From: Cloeon dipterum
Lineage: Eukaryota > Arthropoda > Insecta > Ephemeroptera > Baetidae
DNA length: 64,000 nt
Direction of reading: 5' to 3'
NCBI RefSeq assembly: GCF_949628265.1
Contig: NC_088786.1
Span: 2,294,001 to 2,358,000 of the forward strand
This document shows positions 3,018 through 63,516 of the stretch, piece after piece; the stretch's first letter is position 1, and each line of letters starts with the position of its first letter. Made by a program: the position numbers and the translations under genes. The notes beneath the pieces were generated by a model, which was not told the DNA's origin, made no database searches, and saw only the letters and a program-made list of their open reading frames with translations.

Positions 3018-3090
3018 GCCTCGATAGCTCAGTTGGGAGAGCGTTAGACTGAAGATCTAAAGGTCCCCGGTTCAATCCCGGGTCTGGGCA
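3018..3090 (+). tRNA. tRNA-Phe (anticodon GAA)
   Basis: A 73-nt intronless tRNA. It has the A box around TAGCTCAGTTGGGAGAG, an anticodon loop CTGAAGA (GAA, Phe) closed by a TTAGA/TCTAA stem, and a T arm CCCGG-TTCAATC-CCGGG. A TTTT pol III terminator follows at 3094-3097. The body matches the usual animal tRNA-Phe very closely. The acceptor stem is unusual: GCCTCGA against TCTGGGC gives one T-G wobble (4-69) and one C-T mismatch (5-68). The rest is intact, so it may be functional or an early pseudogene. Confidence 0.9.
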
Positions 3091-3097
3091 ATCTTTT

Positions 3098-4974
3098 GTA
3101 AAATTTCCTAAACTATTGATCGTTTTGATAATTTTCTTTTGTTTAAATTTGATTCCAAATAAGGAGGAGAATGACTAACAAAATCACTAAATTGGACGCA
3201 TGTGCTCACCACGTGAATTCTTTTCAAAGGAAATGAGTATTTCTTACTGTTAAAAGTGACCCTAAGTGATAATAATGACCTTTATGAGCGGCAATACTGA
3301 TGAGTCCTTTTGCTCACAAATTTTCCAAAAGAAGCCGCCGGCCGGCCGGCAGTAAAAGGGAAAAAAAGCTTCTCATTAGTCACACACAAACAGCCCTCCA
3401 GTAGTTATCGAAGAGTAGAAGCAAAAGCGGCCCAGCGGCGGCAATTCATTTTTTCCCATCAATCGCGCGTCCCAACGACGCGCATTTTGCCAGTTTTTCT
3501 CACCATTAAGCGGCGGTCAATCTATCTCATCGCTCATGAGCGGCATTATTATTGCGCAATAATGGTTATTGCACGGCCTGGCCCAGTCATTTGTATTGCT
3601 TCTGGGTCCGGGGACCGCGACTCGTAATTGAGCCACATGAGTGAGATAGATGGATGGATGAATCCACAAGACGCACGCGTAAAAACAGACGCAGCCGAGC
3701 GCAGAAAATAAATAATGTTATACTTTTGGGGACATTTTTCCTGGCTCCCATATTGTGTAAGTAAGGTCTGTTTCGAATGAAAAAAGACGACGGCATGGTA
3801 ATAATAACGGGCCGAATTGCTTCCTGTTCGTTGTCTCCTTTTCGCAGCAAGACGACCAATTCAACTACCTTAATTAGGGTGGCAACAAGTTTGATTTTAC
3901 GGCAAACGGAAACCACGAGTAATAGACAACGTGTGCTTGGGCAACAGCATGTTGTTGGAATGAGATGGATTGTGTTTCAAAAGCGACAACTTTCTGCTAT
4001 GTGAGGGATTTTTCAGCATTGCTACAATTTTTAAAGCTACTGCTCACGAATCCACATTATTTAAATTGAATTAAAATATTTCTAGCTTTATATTTCAAAG
4101 AAATCAAGATTTCTTAAAACGACTTTAAAAATTACAAGTTTAGCGTCACTATTTGATTCCAACTAAAGGAATTTTACTAGCTTGGAAGTGGTTGATTAAT
4201 CGCTGCTGCTGCTGGAAAGTGGAAACGCGAAGAGCATCTGCCGCGTCTGATCTCATCCCCATTCTCCATTCTTTGCGCTGCGATCCCATTGATCAAAAGG
4301 TGCAAGTCCGTTTTGAGCGGTGCCGCGACAGTTGTTTGCCGGCCTTTTGTCACACTTTTCTGCTCAATTAGTTGAATAATGGATGCCTGCAAACACACAG
4401 ATTCGGATTTGCATGCGGTGTGTGATCGATGGCTTTTTAACGTGTCAAATTATGAGCGGAGCAGAGGCGCGTTCGCTGCTGATGGTAATTTTGTCGAGTG
4501 TCGCGTTGACTGCTGGCATTTACAGGTCAGTGAGCATAAAAGCCAGTGACGATTTCTCTCGGAAAAAGGGGCAGCAAGCCAACAAGCTGAATTGAAGGCC
4601 CACTAATGCTCTGCAAAATCAATCTGCGATGGCCTGGTGCGGGTCCTGCTCAAAAAAAAAAACAATCCACATTTCTTTAAAGGTTAAGGGTTTGGATTTT
4701 GAAGATTTATTTCAGGTCATTTTTTAAATAAAAATGAATTTATTATCAAAAGAAAATTAATTTAGGGTAAAAATTGGCTTTTTTTAGATTCAAATTGATT
4801 TTATTGAGCATGAGTAGGGCAACGGAACCCTAGATTTCCCCAAAGCCAAAAGAAATAAATTAACTAAATAAAAATAGATTCAATCAGAAACAATTAAGGA
4901 ATTCAGTATTTAAAAATTATTTTTGGGTTCCTATAATTCATCCTTAAGGCATCTTTATCCTATTCCATCCTCTC
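3098..4974. other. Intergenic, no gene recognised
   Basis: Mixed composition with a GC-rich patch at about 3330-3500 that includes a short GGCC-rich run. Open frames here overlap on both strands and lack domains or splice context. I see nothing I can support as a gene. Confidence 0.4.
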
Positions 4975-14704: not shown

Positions 14705-17700
14705 TTAGCTGCTCGACGAGACGCTGGGCGTGCTTCCTCCGGTCAGGCTGCGCATGGCACTGCCCGCCGAGTGGTGCAGGAGCCCCGTGGGCGTCAAAGA
14801 GGGCAACCCCGCCAGCTTGAGGGCCGCCCCGCTGCCGGCGGCCGCGGCGGCTGCGGCCGCTTTTTCCAGCTGCTGGTGCTGAGTGCGGACGGCGAAGCGG
14901 TTCACGTGCACCGGGATGGGCACCACGATTTTGCTGTTGCCCTGGGTTCCCACGCCCTGGGCCCCTTGGGTCCCGCGGGTGCCGGAGCCCAGGCCGGCCT
15001 TGACTCGCTTCCACTTGGCGCGTCGGTTTTGGAACCAGATTTTCACCTGCACTTCGCTCAGACGCAGCGAACGTGCGATTTGCGATCGCTCCGTCAGGCT
15101 CAGGTACTTTTTCGCGTGGAACTCCTTCTCCAGTTCGAGCAGTTGTTCGCTGGTGAAAGCGGTGCGTCGGCGCCGGATTTTGCCGCTTGATTTGCCGCCA
15201 GACGAGCCGTCGGTCGGCGAAGTTCCGTCGCCCGTTGCTGAAGTCTCGCTCTCTCCGCATCCAGAGCCTGGACTCGCCGGTTCGGTGCAGTTTCCGCCTG
15301 AAATCATTTTTGAAGCGACAAAATTTAGCTTTCAGCTCTGCTTTCAACACAAATTAAAATATATAGCTTTGTTTTGAATGAAATGGCATGAAAGATATTA
15401 AAAAACGATTAGGATTTTAAGGTGGGATTTGCATTTTATAACTTTTCATCCAACAATTTTCTTAAAAATTTCCTCCGTGGGTGTTTTTTTTCGATTTTTA
15501 TCATTTAAATTTCAAAATAGAATCATAAAATATGAAAATCCTCATAAATCGATAAGAATTGTAAGTCATTTAAGGTTTGGAACAGTTGCAAGAATACCAA
15601 TCTCCTTTTTGGGGGTTGTTACAAGAGCAAACGGGGTATAAAAATTATAAATAATAAAATCAGACTGCCTTGTCAGGTATTTTACGCTATCAAAGCAAGT
15701 AATTAAAGATTTAAAATAATTACACTACCAGGTATAAAAAGAAAATTGTTTAATCTAGATAATTTGCATTCAATTGAGAAACTTCCAGGTCACGCAGCAG
15801 CAAAAAATACTTGGTATAGCAACTCATGTGTATAAGTTTCATGTTGTTTTAATTGAGCCGAAAGCGCGATCGAATTTCATTCATAATTCAGAGCCGCGGG
15901 GGACGAGTGCACACATGCTCGTCAGAGCAATTATAGTTTAGTGCGAAATCATCTCGCGGTTCCCATAAATCTATTTCGCGCCGGCAGTGCTGTGCTGCAA
16001 TTTTAATTGGCAGCGGAATGCTTTTTACGCCACGGCAAAAAACGCGCCGAAAAGAATAACAACGCGGCGTACACACTCACTCTCGCTGGTGCAGATGCGG
16101 CCGCCGCGCGTTCTCAAAACAAGCCAAAGATGCAGGCGATCGCTCTCTGCAGCGATAATTACCAGAGCGAGTGGCTTTTACAGCCACATCTGCTCCTGCT
16201 CACCGCACCCCCTGGGAGCGCGGTCCACGGACCACCCCCTCCTCTGCAAAACTACAATTTTCTGGAAATAATGAAACACGGCGGCGGCGGCGGCGGCAAC
16301 GAGACCCCGGGGACTTTTCGTAATGAGCGGTCTTCCGCCACTTTTTGACCAAATTAGCCAATTTGACGGTGGTAATCTACTCCCATGATTGGTTTTGTTA
16401 TTTATATGTTATATTTATGGTATTCTGGACCAGAGCAGTGTCGGATTAGCTAACAAGCTCATTCGATTGATTAGGCCTGCTGTAGTTCATAATTCTAATT
16501 ATTCTAGATGAAAGATACACTTTATCTTGGATGTAAATTGTTTAAACACCGTCTTTGACGAAGTTTGTGAGCACACCAATCGACTCTTGAGGGTTGAATT
16601 AGGCAAAGTGAATATTTTTTCCGACCAGAAAGTGCAGCGCGACGTGCGAACTATTTTTCCCGCCAAAACAATATGAATGCGAGAAGTGCGCATGCGTTAG
16701 AGTTGGCTGGATCTGTCAAAGAAGTCATTCGTACAGGCGGTCTCTCTGCGAGTGCTCAAACCAGCTCTGACGCATGCGCAGTTCTCACATGTACGTTCAT
16801 ATTGTTTTGGCGGAAAAAACGTCGCGCTGCACATTTTGGTCGGAAAAAATATCCCCTTTACCTAATTCGACCCTCAATAATCGATTGGTGTGCTCAGAAA
16901 CTGCGTCAAAGACGAACTTTAAACTTGCCATTTGGAAAAAAAATCCACTTGAAAAGGGTGAAAACGAAAACGAAACCAGTGTTTGATCTGTTGCGGCACC
17001 ATGTGTGCCTTCTTTTGAAGAAATCCGCTGTTTGGCCACTTACATATTTTGCGTGCTCGTCAAGCAAATAATTCCCCAGCACAAGCGGAGAGCAAAGAGC
17101 AGGCCATGCACTCAAACAGCACACACGCTACCCCTTCTCAAGTGCTCTTCATATAGGGGTTGATCTTGTTAGCAATCAGACCAGACAGACCACCCCACTT
17201 GACATGGTACAAAGTGGTTGCCGCGCGCATCTTTGCTCATAATTGATTGCCACTCTCAGCTGCTCTACTTGGAGCTTAATTCAGGTTTATCACGAATCAC
17301 GCCACATCACCGACTGTTTTCCAAATTGGCTATAGGAAAAATCTGTAAATATGCGGTAACTTCAATCTTTTTATGTTGAATTATATTCAAACTAGCCCAA
17401 AATTACTTGAAAAACTATACAAATTTCAAATACATATTCTTAATGTGTTTTTGAACTCCGAATTGGTACAAAACTGAAGAAAATTATATCAAAACGTTAT
17501 CTATTGGATTGCAGCTGTTTCGGCCCTCAGGCATCATCAACAGTTAACTTGCAAAACAAAATTCATGTAATTAATATACCCCGGAGTAATAACTATATAG
17601 AGAATTCTTAAACTCAAGCTTTGGCAGTAAATTTGTAAATTATTTTTACCCCTTTATACTCAAAATACTATCTAAAAATTAGGAAAAAGCTACAAAATTT

Positions 17701-36217: not shown

Positions 36218-39200
36218 TCAGTTCTGGCGTACGTAGGTGCTATCCAGAATTCGGAAGAAGAGTTTGTGCGGCAGCCCTTTGGAGGTTTGTTGGATCTGCC
36301 TGCACAAGAGTTCATAGCTTTGCTCCTCGTAAGTACGGTAGGTCGCCGGCAGGCCCAATTCCCGGTACAGTGTACGCACCTTCTCCACTTTGGCTTGATC
36401 TCTGCTTCCGTAACACTCCTGAAACAGATGCACACAAGATGATAGATATTTATTTTGAGCCTGGCAATTGTCTCAATTAGTCATGAACACCAGAGGAACA
36501 GCTCGCATGGAATTTTAATTTCACTGACAGTCTAGCAATCAACACAGCGATCGTCACCTTTAAATTTTTACAGGTATTCTATTAATCACCATAAAAGTAA
36601 AAAATGTTTGTGCAGTGGAATGGATAGGTAATTGAGTTGATTAGAAGGTAAAAATTAGATACCAAACTCAATACTTCTGCAATGAATAATTAACATTCGA
36701 GGCGATCAGATGTCTTTACAATAACACACGTGGGCAGCCCAGAAAAAAATTATTTATTTTGGAAATGTAACAGAACGTGAAAAAAGGTCAAACGAAAGCA
36801 TCCATTAAGAAAGTTCTATTATATTTGGGACTTGTTCCTTATTTATGTTGTTAAAGGAGAAATAAACCGCCCTAAGCCACCTGTAAACTAAAAAAAAATC
36901 CAACGCGCACATCTGACTGTTTGTTTAAACAAAGATTACAACAATGTAGATTTATGAGAGTGAGTGACCCTTGTAACAGGACGCATCATTAGTGAAGGGA
37001 TGTTACAGGCTTTGTGAGGAAAAATAGTTAAAATTCCGTAATGCATTACCTGCATTATTTGTTTCTGTGCAGGAGTTGCCCTCTGAAGGGCAACCACAGC
37101 CAACCAGGTGCACCTTCCTGTTTCTATGTCTGATGATTCATTTCCAAGAGCGGCAGGGTCGCCGAAGCAGTCCAAATAGTCGGTCTGCAATTAAAAATGA
37201 TGTCATTTGATTCAAAATTGAGATACAATTTTCAAACCTGCACTTGGTAAATTTGTCCCATCTCCATGAGAATCATCTTTGCTTGTCTGTGCAGCTCCAG
37301 GTCATTGTTCTCCACCTACGTGGGAGATAAAAAATGATGATTCATCCAAATCAACAATATTATTTCGCATTTCTGCATAAACAGATTCGCAATTACAAAA
37401 CTTTGAAAATGAATTAATGTATTGTGGCTCTTGCAAAAAATATCACCACAACTAACGAGATCAGTGACCCAATAAATATCTGGCGCGAGATTACGCGAGG
37501 ACCTTGACCCCCGGTTAACCTACTCTCTTGACGTGGAAAATCGATCTCACTGCTGATTCACGTGATTTCGCGAAGCAGAAACAAACAATAATTCGCACTT
37601 ATCAGCGTTAAACAGAGTGTTCGCGGAAAGATTTCACAAACGTGGCAGTGTTGACATGCGTTAATCTGATACCTCTTCTAATTTGCATGCGAAAAATTTG
37701 AATTGATTAGAAGCGCGAGCTGAGTGAATAATAATAACTGTCGCGTCATTAATCCGGTGCGTCGCGGCAGGCTGTTTGTGGCTAACAAGAAAACATGCAT
37801 CTATCATGCGGGCAAGCAAGGTCAAGGCTGTTGTTTCATTCCATTAATGCAAGCAGAAAAGGAAGAGTGCTGGTCGCGCGTCAAGAGTTTGCTGCAACTC
37901 GTCTCGAGGCCTTCCACGTTTCAAATCGGACATATTCATCTTCCCTTCCGTGGAACTGATAGTATAAAGAGATCGCGACTTTTCACCGTCGAGTCATCCA
38001 TGCAATAATGTTGCTTTTCGTGTATGCGCGCTAAGCAGTACAAATTCGCACTCACCAGGTACATGGCGAGAATGACAGGCAGTTGGAATGTGTAGTAAGC
38101 AGTCTTGTATTTAACAATGGCCTGGTACCTCTCCATTGTAAACAACTCGAGGGAGGCATCAGAGCGGGCCTGAATGTCCAGCACTTGGCCCATGATCGCC
38201 TTGTGCGTCACCTTGAATTAATTTAATTTCTTAGAAATATTAGGGGTGAGCGATTGAAATTAATTGGTACGTCGTGGAAGAGCTCCAGGATTTCGACGTA
38301 ATGGGGGTGCGAGCGGAAGTGCGTTTTCAGCAGCTCGTAGAGTCCGGTTTCGAGGAGGGCCGCGTCGTTGACTGCCCTGAGGCCGAGGCCGCAGTGCACC
38401 GGCCAGCTGGGGCGGCCGCGGCGCACCTGCACTCCGTCTAACGCGTCCGCGGCCACCGTCAGAGAGGCGTGCAGCTAGTAGAAATTTTTTGTTTTTCAGA
38501 TTTAATTGGTTCGGTTTGGATCCAGGCAGCCCTACCATTTCCACTGCCCACCCCATGAGGTGCGCCTGCTTGATGCCCTCGGGTGTGAACTCTTGGGCCA
38601 GGTATTTGTACGCCTGCGACACGGCGAGCCCTCTGTTTTTCTTGCCTCCAGGAACGGCGTATTGCAAAACCTGTTCGTTTGCAGACACGCTCTTCATTTG
38701 CACGCCGATTTCAATTCAAATTAATTTGTACCTGAGCGAACCATTTTGTAGCTGCTGGTACTTCAAGGTGCTGTCGTCCTCTCTCGGTCAGGTTGCGGAC
38801 AATGTCGGGGAAGGCGGCATTAAACTGAATCAACTCGGCTTTATTGGTGATTGGGCCGCGCACTGCTGGCGCCGGTTCAGGCTTCCCAAACCAGGAAAAA
38901 CTGGTGGCATGAATGTTAAGTTTAATTGGAATTTTTGGCACAACTTGAGCGGCAAGACCTTTTTCGAAATTCAAGGGCAACTCTTTGCGAAATTCGCTCT
39001 CAGAAAGGAGATGATGGCATTGCGCACTGCGCGGCAGTAATAAAATAAGCGGTTGGATAAATGACCCCTTTGCTCATATGCGATCGTTCCACATACGAAT
39101 TTTTTAAACATTACATACGCATTCATTTTAATTTCAGATTTTTAGCAAACAAGCTTATTTTTTACCTCAAACAGTCGACAGTTTTTAGATTTTATTCAAA

Positions 39201-40067
39201 TTGTAAGAAATTCAACTGAATAAAAGTGTTTGTATTAATGGATGGAATTTATTTTATAGCCGATATTATTATTATTTTGGTCACGGCTATCTCTAGGCAG
39301 ATAAGGCGCGAAAGGCACGCCGCCAACTGAGTGTTAGCAAAGAAATCGATTAAGCACACAATAATTGCTTGAAAATATTATTATACGAAACAAATGAAAA
39401 TAGACTGACCGCAGAATCACACGTTTGTACCCCGCAGACACGTTTTTGTGCGCTCCGTCATCGACAAATTGATAACATAGTTGCACGTGTATGCGCTTTT
39501 TGTTTTGATCTTGGATTATGTTGGAAACGAGGCGTGATTCTAAATTGAGCAGTTAATTGGGCGATTTCTAAAATTCCTCTTAACCATCCTTTTTTTCTAT
39601 CAATTTACGTCATTTTGAAGAAATTTGGGTTTGAGTGTTTATTGCAAATCAATAAGTATTTGTGCCTGCAACACAAACATTTGAAATGTAAACACTATTA
39701 AATTTCTTTTTTCTATTGTAAATTTAAATATTGCTTTTGGCCAATTTTTAAATGCGCGGATATGAATAGAGGAGCTTCAATTTATGAACCCTTGCATGAA
39801 TTCAAATAATTAAATTACACAAAAAAAAACTTGCAATAGAATCAAGTGAAAGCGATATTTGAGACAAAAAGTAAGGATCTTAAAGGAAGTCTAAAAATAT
39901 TAAAAAATGTGCTTATTTCCTAAACATTTGAAATTGTGATGTCAAAGTTAAAAGAGACTACTGTACCTTGCAGACGTGGTGGCGAGCGCCCTTCTGGGGG
40001 GAGCCAGGTCAGGGGTGTGCTGCAGGAAGACCCTTGCGAGGGCCGATCTCGCCTGTCCGGCCAGCAT
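36218..40067 (-). CDS. Fpps: Farnesyl-diphosphate-synthase-like protein, mitochondrial leader, altered FARM and SARM
   Basis: Eight exons: 40067-39967, 39026-38732, 38670-38536, 38474-38271, 38211-38056, 37315-37238, 37184-37050 and 36418-36218, all phase-consistent, 434 residues. Exon 1 encodes an Arg/Ala-rich, acid-poor leader (MLAGQARSALARVF) typical of mitochondrial targeting. The fold follows isoprenyl diphosphate synthases: ATKWFAQVLQY, GGKKNRG (142-146), VRRG (194-197), KYKTAYY and C-terminal LGLPATY. The FARM, normally DDxxD, reads ADALD (186-190). The SARM, normally DDxxD, reads TDYLD (324-328) after IYQVQ, and the lysine usually following it is Asn338. Residues before the FARM are SLTV rather than the FFLV type. 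The family condenses DMAPP/GPP with IPP using Mg2+ bound by these aspartates. Diphosphate-binding Lys/Arg residues remain. It could be a diverged FPPS, a terpene-synthase-like paralogue or a non-catalytic subunit. Confidence 0.9.
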
Positions 40068-43415: not shown

Positions 43416-45143
43416 ATGCAATCCGAATCAATTGAGTCGTGCAAACAGTTCATTCGAGAAAAAATTTTGCAACCTGCGGAATTTCGCGGATTTGAAGAGC
43501 AGCGGACAAATCTGCTGAACTTGATGGAAAGGGCCGTTTGGGACCACGACAGCAATTCAGCACTTCTAATTGGGCCTGCTGGAAGTGGAAAGACAACGGT
43601 TTGTTCCATCAAAGTCTGTTCATTCAAAATATAATACATATTTTCAACAGCTTGTCAGGAGCGTTTTAAAAGAGCTCTCTGAAAAGAAGGATTTCGACAA
43701 GAAGGCCCTGGTTATCAACCTGAACGGACTCATCCACACAGACGACAGGCTGTCTCTGAAGTCTATGTGCAAACAAATGAGCTTGCAGAATGTCGTCGAT
43801 GAAAGAGTCACGGGAAATTTTGCAGGTACATATTATAAATTTAATCCTTAATTCCCACAGTGCTTATATTCTGCTCTTAGATAATATGGCCTTGATTTTG
43901 TCTTCTTTACAAAACAGCGACCAGAAAAAAGCTCTGATATTTATCCTTGAAGAGATGGACCTTTTTTGCAACCACCACAATCAGTCGCTGTTGTACAACT
44001 TGTTTGATTTGGCCCATAAAAATGAGGTTTGCTAGCTAAATATTTTTTGAATGCCAACCTTATTTTCAATTATGTTGCCAGAATGCTGTGTTTGTATTGG
44101 GCGTGACCCTGAGGCTTGATGTCATGGACCGAATGGAGAAGAGAGTCAGGTCTCGCTTTTCCTACCGAAGCATATACCTGCTTCCGGTCAACGACGCTGT
44201 CGACTTTGAATCCCGAATAGGCATGTGCCGGCATTGGTTGTCCATAGAAACTTCTTGCTTCAACAGAACGCTGTGCAAAGCGTGGAACAAGCACATCAAC
44301 AAATTGCTAGCTGAAAATGAGGCTGCGTACAATTGCATCAAGCGGCTCTACGATATGCAGAACAACGAAGAATCTACTAAAGAATTGCTTGTAAGTATCA
44401 ATTCTTAAAATTAATGATAGTGATTTTTATATTTTTAAAAATGAGTGAAAGTCGCGATCACAAAATTCCTTGAAGAATTTTATCTTTTTAAAACAATTCA
44501 CTTTCATTCCTCTTAAACTCGTTAATCAATGTTTTATTATTTTGTGTAACAGTTACACACAATCAGCAGACTTGGCGAGGATAACACAACTCTTAGTGGG
44601 CAAGATTTTGAGGAGGCACTCCAGGACGTGATTTCTGATGGGTGGCTACAAATCTTGGACGGTCTCTCGACCCTAGAAATTTGTTTGGTTAGCATATTTA
44701 TTCTTGCTGCTTGATTTGTAACTATTTAAAAAAACGCACGCCTTCAGGTGATTGCAATGAAACAACTAGGAGACGTGTACCAGGGTGATCCAGTGAATTT
44801 TGAAATGGTGTACTCGAGGTACCTGAAATTCGCCAAGAACCATTCCAGTTTCGAAGACTGCAACAGAAATACTGTGATCAAAGCCTTCGAGCACCTCCAG
44901 GTATGTTAAAAAATCAAACTTGAATTATTTAGCAAAGTTCCGTACTCGGATTTTTATTACAAATTAATCGCGATGTAGGCGCTTGAGATCATTCTGCCAG
45001 TGACAGGCCACGGGGCGAAAACACAGAGCCAATATCAACTGTACCACTTTCAACTCTCAGCCCAGCAAGTCAAGAGTGCTGTGAAAAGATTCGAAGAGCT
45101 GCCAACAGAGGTGCAGCAGTGGGCTGAACTCAACTTATTGTAA
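43416..45143 (+). CDS. Orc4: Origin recognition complex subunit 4
   Basis: Seven exons: 43416-43598, 43651-43825, 43881-44026, 44082-44390, 44553-44687, 44748-44900 and 44979-45143, all GT..AG and phase-consistent, giving 421 residues (human ORC4 is 436). ORC4 is an AAA+ subunit of the six-protein complex that binds replication origins and loads MCM helicase. Walker A is GPAGSGKT (53-60), split from the next exon just after it. NLNGLIHTDDRLSLK and LLYNLFD are ORC4-specific. Walker B reads FILEEMD (140-146), where human ORC4 has FILDEFD. The arginine-finger region LRLDVMDRMEKRVRSRF is conserved; it contacts ORC1's nucleotide. The winged-helix part includes GLSTLEICLVIAMK and VIKAFEHLQ. Polyadenylation signal AATAAA is at 45162-45167. 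The gene converges on the neighbouring ammonium transporter, with stop codons 51 bp apart. Confidence 0.96.
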
Positions 45144-45194: not shown

Positions 45195-48100
45195 TCAATC
45201 CAGCCAAGCATATCGAGGGTAGTAATCGGTGTTGATGGAAATCGTTGGGATGCTAGAAAACGCACCACTGGTTGCATTCTCAGCTTCATTCTGGTCATTA
45301 GGCCGCTCGTTCCTGTTATTATTGTTGTTTCGCATGGTAGAAAGAGCAGATTCTGGCCTCCTGAGGTTCAAAGGGTTCCGCATTTTCCCCGAGAATGATT
45401 TTTTAAAAGGTTGCGAGAGGTTGATCTTCACCTCGTCTCGAGTTGTTTCTATTTCCTTTTGCTTTTCTTTCACATAAAGCTCCAAGTACGCATTGTGACC
45501 TAAAAATTCAACGTTTTAAATAGAAGGTTTGATTCAAAATTGTAAATTGATACCTGGATTGGTGCCAGTGCGTCCAATTGGATCCATCTCATGATAGGGT
45601 CTGAGAGCGGAGACGGCTCTGCTCACTCCAATGTGGCCGCCCTGCATAATTCTGTGCTCGCTGTAATCAGCCCCAAGCAGCTCTTCTATTTCTGTCATCC
45701 TTATTGGGATTATCCAATTAACAACCTGCAATAATTATAGTTTTATCATTTAATAATTTATATTGGGTTTCCTGTTCCTAAATTTTTAAGATTACACTTG
45801 AAAAAATACAGTAGGATGGCGTATTTTTTAATTAGAAAATAATACAAAAATTGTTGACTTGGAATTAAAACCTTGTTGAATTTGAACCCGATTAGTGGTT
45901 TAAATTGAACTATTAAAAACCTACAAAACCCAGATCTAATACTTTCATGAAATTTCTAATTTTTTGGAGGGTTAAAAACAACCAACCGATAGATTTGTTT
46001 CATTAAACAGTGTCTACAAACTAATAATCCAGCTAAAAAGTGAGCAAAAACTGTCTTTGCGTAAGTAAATTTTGAAATTATGGGCCATTTTCTCCAAAAA
46101 TCGGTAAACTGTGCACATCAGGAAAGACGGGTAGAAACTAAAACCTCCAATCCTTAGAGTTTCCTCGTTAGAGTGAGTCAGTTAATATCCCAAATTCATC
46201 CCCAATTTTCTATTTTCGTGTATTTGATAAAATAATCTAATTAAAAATAGTACCATTAAAATGATTGCGGTGCTGACCATGGCCCAAACTGTAAGACACA
46301 AAACACTCAGGGCCTGCACGCCCAACAACTCCCATCCGCCTCCTTTGAAAAGTCCCTTGCGACCTCCTGTGGTGGTCAAGGGCTTGGGGTCCTCCGCGAA
46401 GAGCCCAACAGCCAGCACACCCCACATGGACGCAAGGCCGTGGACTGAACTGGCGCCAACTGGGTCGTCGACGCCCATTTTGTCGAAATAGGGCATTGTT
46501 GTGCAGGCAATCGTGGCGCCTATGGCTCCGACCAGGACAGCTTCATACGTTCGGTACAGAAAGCAACCGGCTGAAAGGGTTGCACATTATTTTTGGTCAG
46601 TAAATGTCGGGACTGCGTACCGGTAATCGACACGAGAGCGCCGAGGACTCCGTTAATGAGATCCATGATGTCAAAGTAGCCGGCTCTGGTCAGACCCGAG
46701 TACAAAAGACCGACAGATCCGCCACCGAACGAGGCCAAAAGAGTCAGTACTGCGGCTGTTGCTGCGTATTGCCACTTTGCTCCAGTTACTCCGTAAGTGC
46801 TAGAACAAAATTTCTAAAAAATGACATGTCGAAAGCAATCATCCTTCAAGCAACTGAATAATTAACAAAGTGGCTCTTGACCTTGCTCTTGTTTTCCGAT
46901 TCTGGAAATGCTCATTCAAAGAGAATAGCAAATTGCTCGCTCTGACATTGACGTGATTTTGGGTCAATGTGTGTCTGGTTCACCCCATCACACTGATTTG
47001 ATAGCACACGCATGATTTTCATCCAATTACGAATGCTGTTCATTTTCGCTTTTGCTGCCGACAGCGTTAATTAGGCCAACTATTAATCAAGTGAGCGCCG
47101 AGTAAGCTCTTGTATATTATTTGCGCTGTGCTTTCTAATTAAAAGTTGATTGATGCAGACGGTTTTTGCGACTTAATCTGAACAGCCCGCTTAATTAAGA
47201 AAACTATAGAATACCATGCAGGTGCTGTTCTACTAATTATCTGCGTTAGAAATAAAATTTATGACAGATTTTCAGTTGCGTCTTAAATCGAAACTGACTC
47301 ACCTGCCGGAGTTGAAGGCCAGCCAGCCCCACCACAGCACAAAGAGTCCCATAATGGCGTTGACGGGACTTCCAAGGGGTAGAGGATCGTTTCCATTTAA
47401 ATACCGCCCCAATCGTGGTCCCAGCATTAATGCTGCTGTGAAAGCTTTTGAAATTCGGAGAGAATAAAGTTATTTGAAACGAATTTTTTCAAAATACCTG
47501 AGGTTCCACCGACAAGGTGAACAGGACCCGAGCCAGCGATGTCCACCACCCCCAAATTGAACAGAAAACCATGCTCGCCCCAAACCCATCCTGCGGGGAT
47601 GCAGTAGACGATTGTATTTATTAAGGAGAAGAGGCAGTAAGCTTTGAAGTTGCACCTGCAGATATACATATTCGATAAAGGAAAAATGCGATATTTATTC
47701 TCCCTTATTAAAATACAATTCATTGTCATTAAAATGACTTTGTTGGAGGGAAAAATGTGAGAAAGGGCACCACTTCTGGCAAAAACCGTGATAGTAAACC
47801 TAAAATAGGCCTATGCTCTAGTTCAAATTAAGCCCTTGCATAATCACGAGGCATATCGTTCCACACACAAACATGGAGTAACAAAAAATTCAAACATTTA
47901 CAAATATTATTATGCTCAACCTTTCTGCCATTGCCCCCGAGACGATCGTGGTAGCTGTAGTTGCGAAAGACAGTTGGAAAAGGAAGGCAGCAAACATCGG
48001 TCCCATCAGCTCGTCCTCAAAGTCTGGATCAAGCATGAAATCACCGAGTGCGTAGAAAGGAGTGTTGAGCGGACTCCGACCGAAACTAAGGCCGAATCCG

Positions 48101-59319: not shown

Positions 59320-60520
59320 GTGAGTGCCGCACAAGAAGCCCCCCGCCTCCGCCCCCCCGATTCTCGGAGCAGAACGCGCCCCCGCGGCCCCCTCTGGGCC
59401 CCTTCGCATCCCGACGGCGTTTGTTGTCCTGTGGTCCAGGATCTGCTCCGTTGTTAATTTCGCGATTCTCTCAAGGTTCTCCTCGGGGAGACCGTCCAAA
59501 ACGGCGTCAGACGCTTAAATTCGGATGCCGACGCCCGGGCGCCGAATTCTCGGGCCGAACCGAGTGGAGAGGCGAGCGCTCGGCCTGCTGGCCTCGGGAT
59601 CATCCCCTTGGGCGCAACACTCGCGATTTCTCTGATCTGTGTTTGAACGTGATTGAGATGCCGCAGGCTTTGCTCTGCAGTTCCAATTTGGGCTGCCACC
59701 AATTTGCTGCCGATTGCACTCTTTCCCGGCCACTGCATTTCCGACCCGATGGACCGTCATTATTTTTTTTGTTGTTGCCACTGACACTTTCTCTGCGTCC
59801 GATTTTTATTCGCCAATTACGTATGTATCTGTGGAATTGGTCGGAAATTTAACTTTCCTGCGGATGGCACTGCTTTGTTTCGGCAACTGGACCTGGTCGG
59901 GAGTGGATTTGACTAATTTTTGCACTTCATTACCGTTAAAAAGCGGTTGTTTGAATTCTGCTAATGAGGTGCTCAAATTTATTCATCATCTCGTTTGGGT
60001 AGTTTAAATTGTTATGATTTCCGGATTTGTTCACTGTTGTGACACTCTTTGGCCTGTCACTGACCTTAGAGGCGCCAATATCGACAGTCAAGAGCACCGT
60101 ATATTTTACAGAATTAGCATTTATTTTGGAAGCGTGTAAGACGAGCACTGTTTAACTTTAACGTGATTTTCGCGCCAAGCAATTTTGTCAAAGTGCAAAA
60201 TTTCATCTTAATCAGCTCGCAAATGTTTTTCTTGTCCGTTCGCATTTTTTTCGTACAATAGCAAATTTTTCTCGTCAGGGGACCTTCCAAAATGCCACAA
60301 TATTCACCTTTTCGAAATTCAAAATCACCAACTGCCCCAGTGGCCATCCACGTTGCCACCACGAAACCTCGTCCGTGGATTTTACGTGGATGAGTTCCAC
60401 GAACCTATTTTGCCATTTTTTCTGGTGCACTCATTTGGAAATACTTTCCCTTTCGATATTTGACCATTTTTGAGCAGATTTAGTTTGAATTTTTGGGTTT
60501 TTAGGGTAAAATTAACGTCC

Positions 60521-61100
60521 GTGGAACTCACGTGGATGATCCCCAATTTCCCAAATTGAGTTTTTGAAGCTCTTTTTGTGCCTAAATTATCGGTAAATGA
60601 ATTAAATGCTCCTCTAAAGCTGTTTAATTTAATTTTTTTTTAATTTTTTGTAAATTTTACTTCGTGGAAGGGTCTCCGTGGATGCTCCGTGGATGTTCCG
60701 CGGACGATCCACGGAACTCCGTGGATGCTCCGTGGAACTTACGTGGATGATCCCCAATTTCCCCAACTCGTGTTTTTCATTACTCTTTTGTGTCTAAATT
60801 ATCAGTAAATGAATTTTAAGTGCTCATCCAAAACTAGTTCAGTTTTTTTTTTAAATTTTGTAAAATTTCCCATCGTGGAAATTTTTTCGTGGATGCTCCG
60901 TGGAACTCACGTGGATGATCCCCAATTTTCTAAATCGTGTTTTTAAAACACTTTTTGTGTCTAAAAATTATCGGTAAATGAATTAAGTGCTCCTCCAAAG
61001 CTAGTTTATTTAATTTTTTTTATTATTTTTTTAAAATTTTACTTCGTGGAAAAGTCTTCGTGGATGCTCCGTGGATGCTCCGCGAATGATCCACGGAACT
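60521..61100 (+). repeat. Tandem repeat, about three units, CGTGGATGATCCCCAATTT type
   Basis: Units begin near 60521, 60728 and 60893 with CCGTGGAACT.ACGTGGATG and ATCCCCAATTT. Each is followed by a CGTGTTTTT/GAGTTTTTG-like block, TAAATTATCGGTAAATGAAT, GTGCTC.TCCAAA and a T-rich tract, then TTCGTGGAA. Unit length varies from about 165 to 210 bp. Confidence 0.8.
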
Positions 61101-62960: not shown

Positions 62961-63276
62961 CAGAGCACCATTTTTCGGGAGCAGTATTACACTAAGGGGT
63001 TTTCAAAGCTTGTGAATGTTAAAATTTTTCAGCTTTCTTAATTAATTGTCTTCTCTTGTTTCTCATAACCTTATGGACACTACTGTAAATTGATAAAATT
63101 CTTTGTATTGATCTATTGTTACTGTGCATGTGTCATCTTTTTGTAATCAAAATTGAATAAGAAATATATAAAAATTTTAAAATTCCAAAGAATGAATTTC
63201 ATTTGCGATATTATTACCCAGAAAAATGAAACACGATCCACGGAAAATCCCCAGCGATTCCACGTAGCTGTTCCAC

Positions 63277-63350
63277 GGGGAATCTTCATAGATTATCCCC
63301 GTGGAATCTTCATAGATCATCCCCGTGGAATCTTCATAGATCATCCACGT
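63277..63350 (+). repeat. 24-bp minisatellite, about three units
   Basis: CGTGGAATCTTCATAGATCA with CCCC between units, repeated three times and lying inside the CGTGGA-rich right arm. In translation it gives the artefactual repeat RGIFIDHP. Confidence 0.85.
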
Positions 63351-63516
63351 GGATACCACGTATTTCGGGCGGACAATTTCTACGGGGAATCCACGTGGAC
63401 CATCCACGTGGTTTCCACGTGGGATCCGTGGATCATCCACGTAGGATCCCCGTGGAGTCCACGTGGAATGGCCACTGGGGTGTCTGTCAGATTTTTCAGT
63501 ACATAAATAAATCCGA

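Follow-up and report, generated by a model that had tools for sequence, protein, structure and literature searches.

Can a member of the farnesyl diphosphate synthase (FPPS) family that has lost the leading aspartate from both of its metal-binding motifs still act as an enzyme and, if it cannot, why is its reading frame intact? The question is raised by a gene of Cloeon dipterum located on the minus strand at positions 36218..40067 of the window, the 64,000-nucleotide stretch of DNA (C1:2294001-2358000) analysed here. The answer to which we give a slightly better than even chance is that a duplicated FPPS, still under selection, has partly lost the machinery for ionising the allylic substrate. 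The protein would be dead or nearly so as an enzyme and most likely serves as a non-catalytic FPPS-type partner or ligand binder. Judging by its sequence, the gene probably encodes a non-catalytic relative that has been retained, and proteins of this sort have been described before from cockroaches and termites.

The first aspartate-rich motif (FARM), DDxxD in a catalytic FPPS, is ADALD (38436..38450; codons GCG GAC GCG TTA GAC), and the second aspartate-rich motif (SARM), also DDxxD, is TDYLD (37170..37184; codons ACC GAC TAT TTG GAC). Both had been pointed out in an earlier sequence-only reading and were re-read from the genomic codons on the minus strand. Residue numbers and roles were mapped from the available part of the crystal paper on PcIDS1, an enzyme of the beetle Phaedon cochleariae (PMC10396970). 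As described there, D179 and D183 of PcIDS1 serve as ligands for Mg A and C, D319 as the ligand for Mg B, and the closed state is anchored by K333 of the flexible loop 327-336; PcIDS1 variants were stabilised by zoledronate, D319A excepted. In the window protein D179 is replaced by Ala, D319 by Thr and K333 by Asn. The last change, the Lys to Asn exchange reported earlier after the SARM, lies in the aligned closing-loop segment (37128..37145), where GNESSD takes the place of GKxGTD. Three features expected of a catalytic FPPS, the two DDxxD motifs and the closing-loop Lys, are thus absent. Most of the closing loop has diverged, and His and Tyr stand in place of Q172 and F315, respectively. The chain-length region is altered as well, with S-L-T-V-A immediately before ADALD, in agreement with the SLTV noted previously. 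The SL at -5/-4 before the FARM (38451-38465, minus strand) is common to the window protein and PcIDS1 (SLxxM), whereas the canonical FPPS found on contig C4 of the same genome has FF; the likeness is perhaps convergent. His at the Q172 position is also found in the PDB entry 8wd5, which has a FARM of NDIME and an intact SARM; a literature search for 8wd5 traced no paper.

The homoallylic side of the active site is largely kept. According to the same part of the PcIDS1 paper (PMC10396970), isopentenyl diphosphate (IPP) is bound by K133, R136 and R189, with F315 and the C-terminal R427, and an allosteric site for geranyl diphosphate (GPP) is made up of R136, R189, F282, F315, V286 and I420. The three residues for the IPP diphosphate, K133, R136 and R189, are all present in the window protein (3/3), as are D183, R188, E169, Y280, F282, V286, I420, Y425 and R427. 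Among the homoallylic residues named for PcIDS1, the window protein equals the C4 FPPS at 8/10. It shares K133/R136/R189 and the tail Tyr and Arg with canonical FPPS and PcIDS1, together with the intron layout of the C4 gene, and differs from them by D179A, D319T, K333N, the rewritten closing loop and the altered chain-length region. From the loss of K333 and of the Mg2+-holding D179 and D319, normal FPPS chemistry is predicted to be impaired, as the sequence-only reading had supposed.

The gene comprises 8 exons, with 1179 nt from ATG to stop encoding 392 aa. Exon 1 (39967..40067) encodes an Arg-rich, acid-poor N-terminal leader, judged by eye to be of mitochondrial type, and is followed by a phase-2 intron, as in the C4 FPPS. 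Exon 2 (38732..38900) precedes exon 3 (38536..38670), which holds GGKKNRG of the homoallylic diphosphate site (38649-38629). The chain-length region SLTVA, the FARM and RRG are in exon 4 (38271..38474), and KYKTAYY is in exon 5 (38056..38211). After exon 6 (37238..37315), exon 7 (37050..37184) holds the SARM and the closing loop, and exon 8 (36218..36418) the C-terminal tail YVRQN, in which the tail Tyr and Arg are kept, with the stop codon. The spliced translation was reproduced exactly, with GT-AG at 7/7 introns, no stop in 392 codons, and GGKKNRG, RRG and KYKTAYY all in place; the earlier description of an intact frame over eight exons thus stands. None of the marks of a pseudogene (stops, frameshifts, broken splice sites) was found across the 8 exons. 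The words ATTAAA/AATAAA 176-294 nt beyond the stop are a weak sign of a transcript end. The protein belongs to the polyprenyl synthetase family PF00348 (Pfam score 219.2 bits, cut-off 27), and its top-scoring PDB relatives are 8wd5, labelled farnesyl pyrophosphate synthase, and PcIDS1 (8A6U series); the leader of the Pfam and PDB queries was longer by one Arg, outside the domain. In the NCBIfam scan all matches were far under the cut-off.

Artefacts do not account for the altered motifs. Relative to the C4 codons, the change of GAC to GCG (Asp to Ala) takes two base changes and that of GAT to ACC (Asp to Thr) three; single sequencing errors cannot explain them because each residue takes two or more base changes. 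Exon 7 opens with the codon for the SARM Thr, and by eye no alternative GT/AG yielding Asp is present, which argues against a wrong splice choice. Contamination is unlikely, as the gene sits on a 43-Mb contig and its intron layout is in common with the C4 FPPS.

The genome contains an FPPS with intact motifs. In a profile scan of the genome contigs (190 Mb, 10 contigs), PF00348 gave 15 exon matches, distributed over the window gene and four further places. The gene on contig C4 encodes a canonical FPPS (FARM DDVMD, SARM DDYLD, loop GKVGTD; 410 aa as modelled), so the window gene is not the sole FPPS of the genome. The closest PDB chain of the C4 FPPS is PcIDS1 with 522 bits; the best 1fps/1ubx-type chain scores 411 bits, a difference consistent with an insect or another arthropod as the source. 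The window protein is 57.1% identical to the C4 FPPS and 52.1% to PcIDS1 (336 columns). Six of the seven introns of the window gene lie at the same alignment column as those of C4, in phase 0; the first is of phase 2 in both genes and one column apart, in the poorly aligned leader. Because intron positions and phases are in common, the window gene is a duplicate made at the DNA level, and a retrocopy origin is ruled out. The two genes sit on different contigs, and a tandem duplication was rejected on this ground. In a tree of four sequences (window, C4, PcIDS1, 8wd5; unrooted and undated), the grouping of the window protein with C4 was best, with 83% ultrafast bootstrap. Its grouping with 8wd5 was not rejected by the approximately unbiased (AU) test (p 0.186); its grouping with PcIDS1 was rejected by AU (p 0.019), but not by the Kishino-Hasegawa (0.058) or Shimodaira-Hasegawa (0.060) test.

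A third FPPS-like place, on contig C3 (about 3136-3845, minus strand, of locus L011; C3:5471630-5472196 and upstream), is a decayed intron-containing copy of the C4 FPPS region. Identity to C4 is 68-81% in four aligned pieces and 80-90% in five coding pieces with lengths of 29-176 nt; no piece matching exons 1, 2 or 8 of the C4 FPPS was found in the alignment. As read by eye, three in-frame stops fall within the exon-4 and exon-7 sequence, and there is a short deletion at the FARM. The C3 copy illustrates the appearance of an unselected FPPS copy in this genome. A short repeated segment is, by eye, abundant just upstream of it. The two remaining places, both on contig C5, resemble geranylgeranyl diphosphate synthase (L010) and PDSS1 (L012), as judged from motifs by eye.

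The claim that selection has kept the window protein was checked by comparing the rates of non-synonymous (dN) and synonymous (dS) change and is upheld. A GY94-type pairwise fit of the window gene and C4 (338 codons) gave a dN/dS ratio, omega, of 0.024 with a dN of 0.31, and omega = 1 was rejected (2 delta lnL 181.3); the dS of this fit (12.8) is saturated and is not to be taken as a number. In neutral simulations started from the window coding sequence, 0.1 changes per site produced 4.2 stops on average and left 1.4% of 500 runs stop-free, and 0.25 changes per site produced 8.5 stops and left none of 500 stop-free. The GC content at the fourfold sites of the gene is 69% (134/194), against 36% in its introns. 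The protein branch leading to the window gene in the four-sequence tree (LG+G4 model) is 0.60 long versus 0.18 for the C4 FPPS, or about 3.4 times as long. The window gene is constrained, but less than the canonical FPPS.

The changes are concentrated in one part of the active site. At sites identical in C4, PcIDS1 and 8wd5, the window protein differs at 38/160; the corresponding counts for the other sequences are 13/135 (C4), 20/142 (PcIDS1) and 29/151 (8wd5). A strict region test was limited to the residues and ranges named in the available part of the PcIDS1 paper (PMC10396970). The window protein has changed 8 of 13 sites in the set formed by the chain-length region, FARM, SARM and loop 327-336, 1 of 9 in the homoallylic site and pocket, and 29 of 138 elsewhere (p 0.0027). 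The first set shows no such excess in C4 (0/5, p 1), PcIDS1 (1/6, p 1) or 8wd5 (2/7, p 0.62). With C4 and PcIDS1 alone as the standard, 11/18 sites are changed in the window protein (p 0.0063) versus 5/18 in 8wd5 (p 1). A looser test, which counted F314 and F315 as allylic and R188 as homoallylic, had the same outcome: 11/23 allylic, 1/18 homoallylic and 26/119 remaining sites are changed in the window protein (p 0.0067), and the p values were 0.606 for C4, 0.445 for PcIDS1 and 1 for 8wd5.

The sequence of events that we favour would be the following. An FPPS gene was duplicated, and one copy was kept as a selected protein. Its metal site is damaged on both sides: uncharged side chains stand in place of the Mg B ligand and of one Asp of the pair that holds Mg A and C, and the site-closing Lys is lost as well. 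The homoallylic diphosphate site, the C-terminal Tyr and Arg and the prenyl-diphosphate pocket are largely retained. Catalysis is probably abolished or nearly so, and the reason for the protein's retention would be the fold, the dimer or the ligand site. The protein would most likely act as a partner, either paired with the C4 FPPS in a heterodimer or as a homodimer binding prenyl diphosphates, and such a partner would tune isoprenoid output rather than produce a terpene, perhaps in mitochondria. The 'regulatory subunit' mentioned among the options of the sequence-only reading is the branch that we would favour. A precedent is subunit 2 of decaprenyl-diphosphate synthase, described in the accessible text as a regulatory subunit of the prenyltransferase family that lacks D-rich motifs; that synthase makes long chains, whereas the window protein is of FPPS type by sequence.

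Several points weigh against a non-catalytic partner. Heterodimerisation with the C4 FPPS is purely an inference. The omega of 0.024 is a mean over both branches and includes the constrained C4 branch. The regions of the tests were chosen after the sequence was known, and the homoallylic sparing is common to all four sequences, each of which changes 1/9 named sites (1/18 in the wider set); what is peculiar to the window gene is the concentration of changes in the allylic elements. The other points concern chemistry. The window protein retains D180, D183, D320, D323 and R188. In transIDS5 of Planococcus citri, as given in the available part of the report (PMC10960109), D309N abolished activity and D166N, at the first FARM Asp, lowered it significantly, and D308N, at the first SARM Asp, kept GPP formation and hampered that of farnesyl diphosphate (FPP). 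By analogy, these mutants are the main warning that the window protein could have residual activity.

Such activity is the substance of the first alternative, that the protein is still a prenyltransferase, weak or altered in product (for example, GPP-biased or metal-specialised), which uses its remaining Asp residues. K133, R136 and R189 remain beside the four aspartates just named. The transIDS5 mutants argue in its favour, for D308N still formed GPP and D166N retained some activity. The SL ahead of the FARM also matches PcIDS1, whose paper, in the part available, stresses the SLxxM motif. P. citri transIDS11 is reported to be weakly active, and for this reason slightly more weight is given to residual activity and less to a non-catalytic role. 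The P. citri FPPS-like proteins resemble the window protein in that the first SARM Asp is replaced, and two of the three tested were without isoprenyl diphosphate synthase (IDS) activity; all seven keep a canonical FARM, whereas that of the window protein is altered too. Here the leading Asp of each motif and K333 are missing together, at positions that in PcIDS1 correspond to the Mg B ligand (D319) and, with D183, to the ligands of Mg A and C (D179). No active example combining all three changes was found in the literature examined, which was available in part. We therefore regard a working prenyltransferase as unlikely.

A more specific form of the non-catalytic role, to which only a small probability is assigned, is that of an old conserved insect FPPS pseudoenzyme acting as a sensor at the homoallylic site. 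It would bind IPP or GPP through R136/R189/F282/V286/I420, pair with FPPS, and be the same as the Blattodean clade, which it would trace to a time before that order. If this were true, flux to sesquiterpenoid hormone or to mitochondrial isoprenoids would be set by pairing with the working FPPS.

Next to be considered is an IDS-derived terpene synthase (TPS), which would not condense IPP but would ionise GPP, FPP or geranylgeranyl diphosphate (GGPP) and release a terpene. Neither Ala nor Thr binds Mg2+ well, which counts against it. Insect terpene synthases did arise from IDS duplicates, as the available part of one report states (PMC10962984), the window protein is altered in the closing loop and in the chain-length region ahead of the FARM, and its top-scoring PDB relative, 8wd5, likewise has an altered FARM, NDIME. 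The residues for binding IPP are, however, what the reported terpene synthases lose, and this makes the terpene-synthase reading weaker. In the same source, 15/15 of these residues are kept in LlFPPS, 3/15 in LlTPS and 4/15 in PsTPS1 (PMC10962984), and in LlTPS2, according to the accessible part of its description, 9/15 are substituted with FARM and SARM kept (PMC12376265). LlTPS, PsTPS1 and LlTPS2 are, like the window protein, IDS-derived paralogues with altered active-site residues, but the pattern in the window is reversed: the metal ligands are lost, the FARM being ADALD, and the IPP site is mostly kept, if the 8/10 named homoallylic residues equal to the C4 FPPS are taken as a proxy for the published list of 15. 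Of the interpretation offered in the sequence-only reading, constraint, a likely impairment of normal chemistry and a changed copy beside a second, canonical FPPS are thus supported, and the terpene-synthase option is less well supported and, in our view, doubtful.

Very improbable is a gene already released from selection, a pseudogene still free of stops: the roughly 3.4-fold longer branch and the 38/160 changed sites, above C4, PcIDS1 and 8wd5, agree with it, and the data would also fit a gene that was long under selection and escaped it recently, but the divergence is too great for a frame kept by luck in the neutral simulations, omega is far under 1, the splice sites are intact, the fourfold-site GC is still high, and the changes are unevenly spread across the protein.

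The closest known kind to the window gene is that of the Blattodean FPPS-like proteins, as far as the available part of their description goes (PMC13143122). In these proteins FARM and SARM are both disrupted, and EneoA, the sole one assayed, had no IDS or TPS activity. Like members of the EneoA clade, the window gene has both motifs altered and coexists with a canonical FPPS as its paralogue in the same genome. The arrangement of the termite genes suggests tandem duplication, whereas the Cloeon genes are on separate contigs; the comparison is by description only. Among the literature matches listed, mostly abstracts, no report was recognisable as describing the window gene, which says little on novelty.

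The routes to juvenile hormone, ubiquinone and prenylated proteins part at FPPS. A retained copy that lacks metal-binding residues and is otherwise mostly preserved is a good test case for a possible use of prenyltransferase pseudoenzymes as regulators in insects. It also illustrates that an altered FARM or SARM in an FPPS paralogue should not be taken to mean a terpene synthase until the IPP site has been examined.

The window contains several other features. A homeodomain gene exon lies at 14708-15331 on the minus strand (Pfam Homeodomain, 83.9 bits) and looks Gbx/unplugged-like. Exons of an ammonium/Rh-type transporter (PF00909) are at 46185-46586 and 47430-47810, also on the minus strand, and 44040-44405 on the plus strand has a weak match to the ORC4 C-terminus, exactly at the 25.3-bit Pfam cut-off. 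Tandem arrays occupy 60518-61075 and 63272-63353, with units of 211, 167 and 24 bases that have the word CACGTGGA in common. A tRNA-Phe gene (gaa) was identified by ARAGORN at 3018-3090 on the plus strand.

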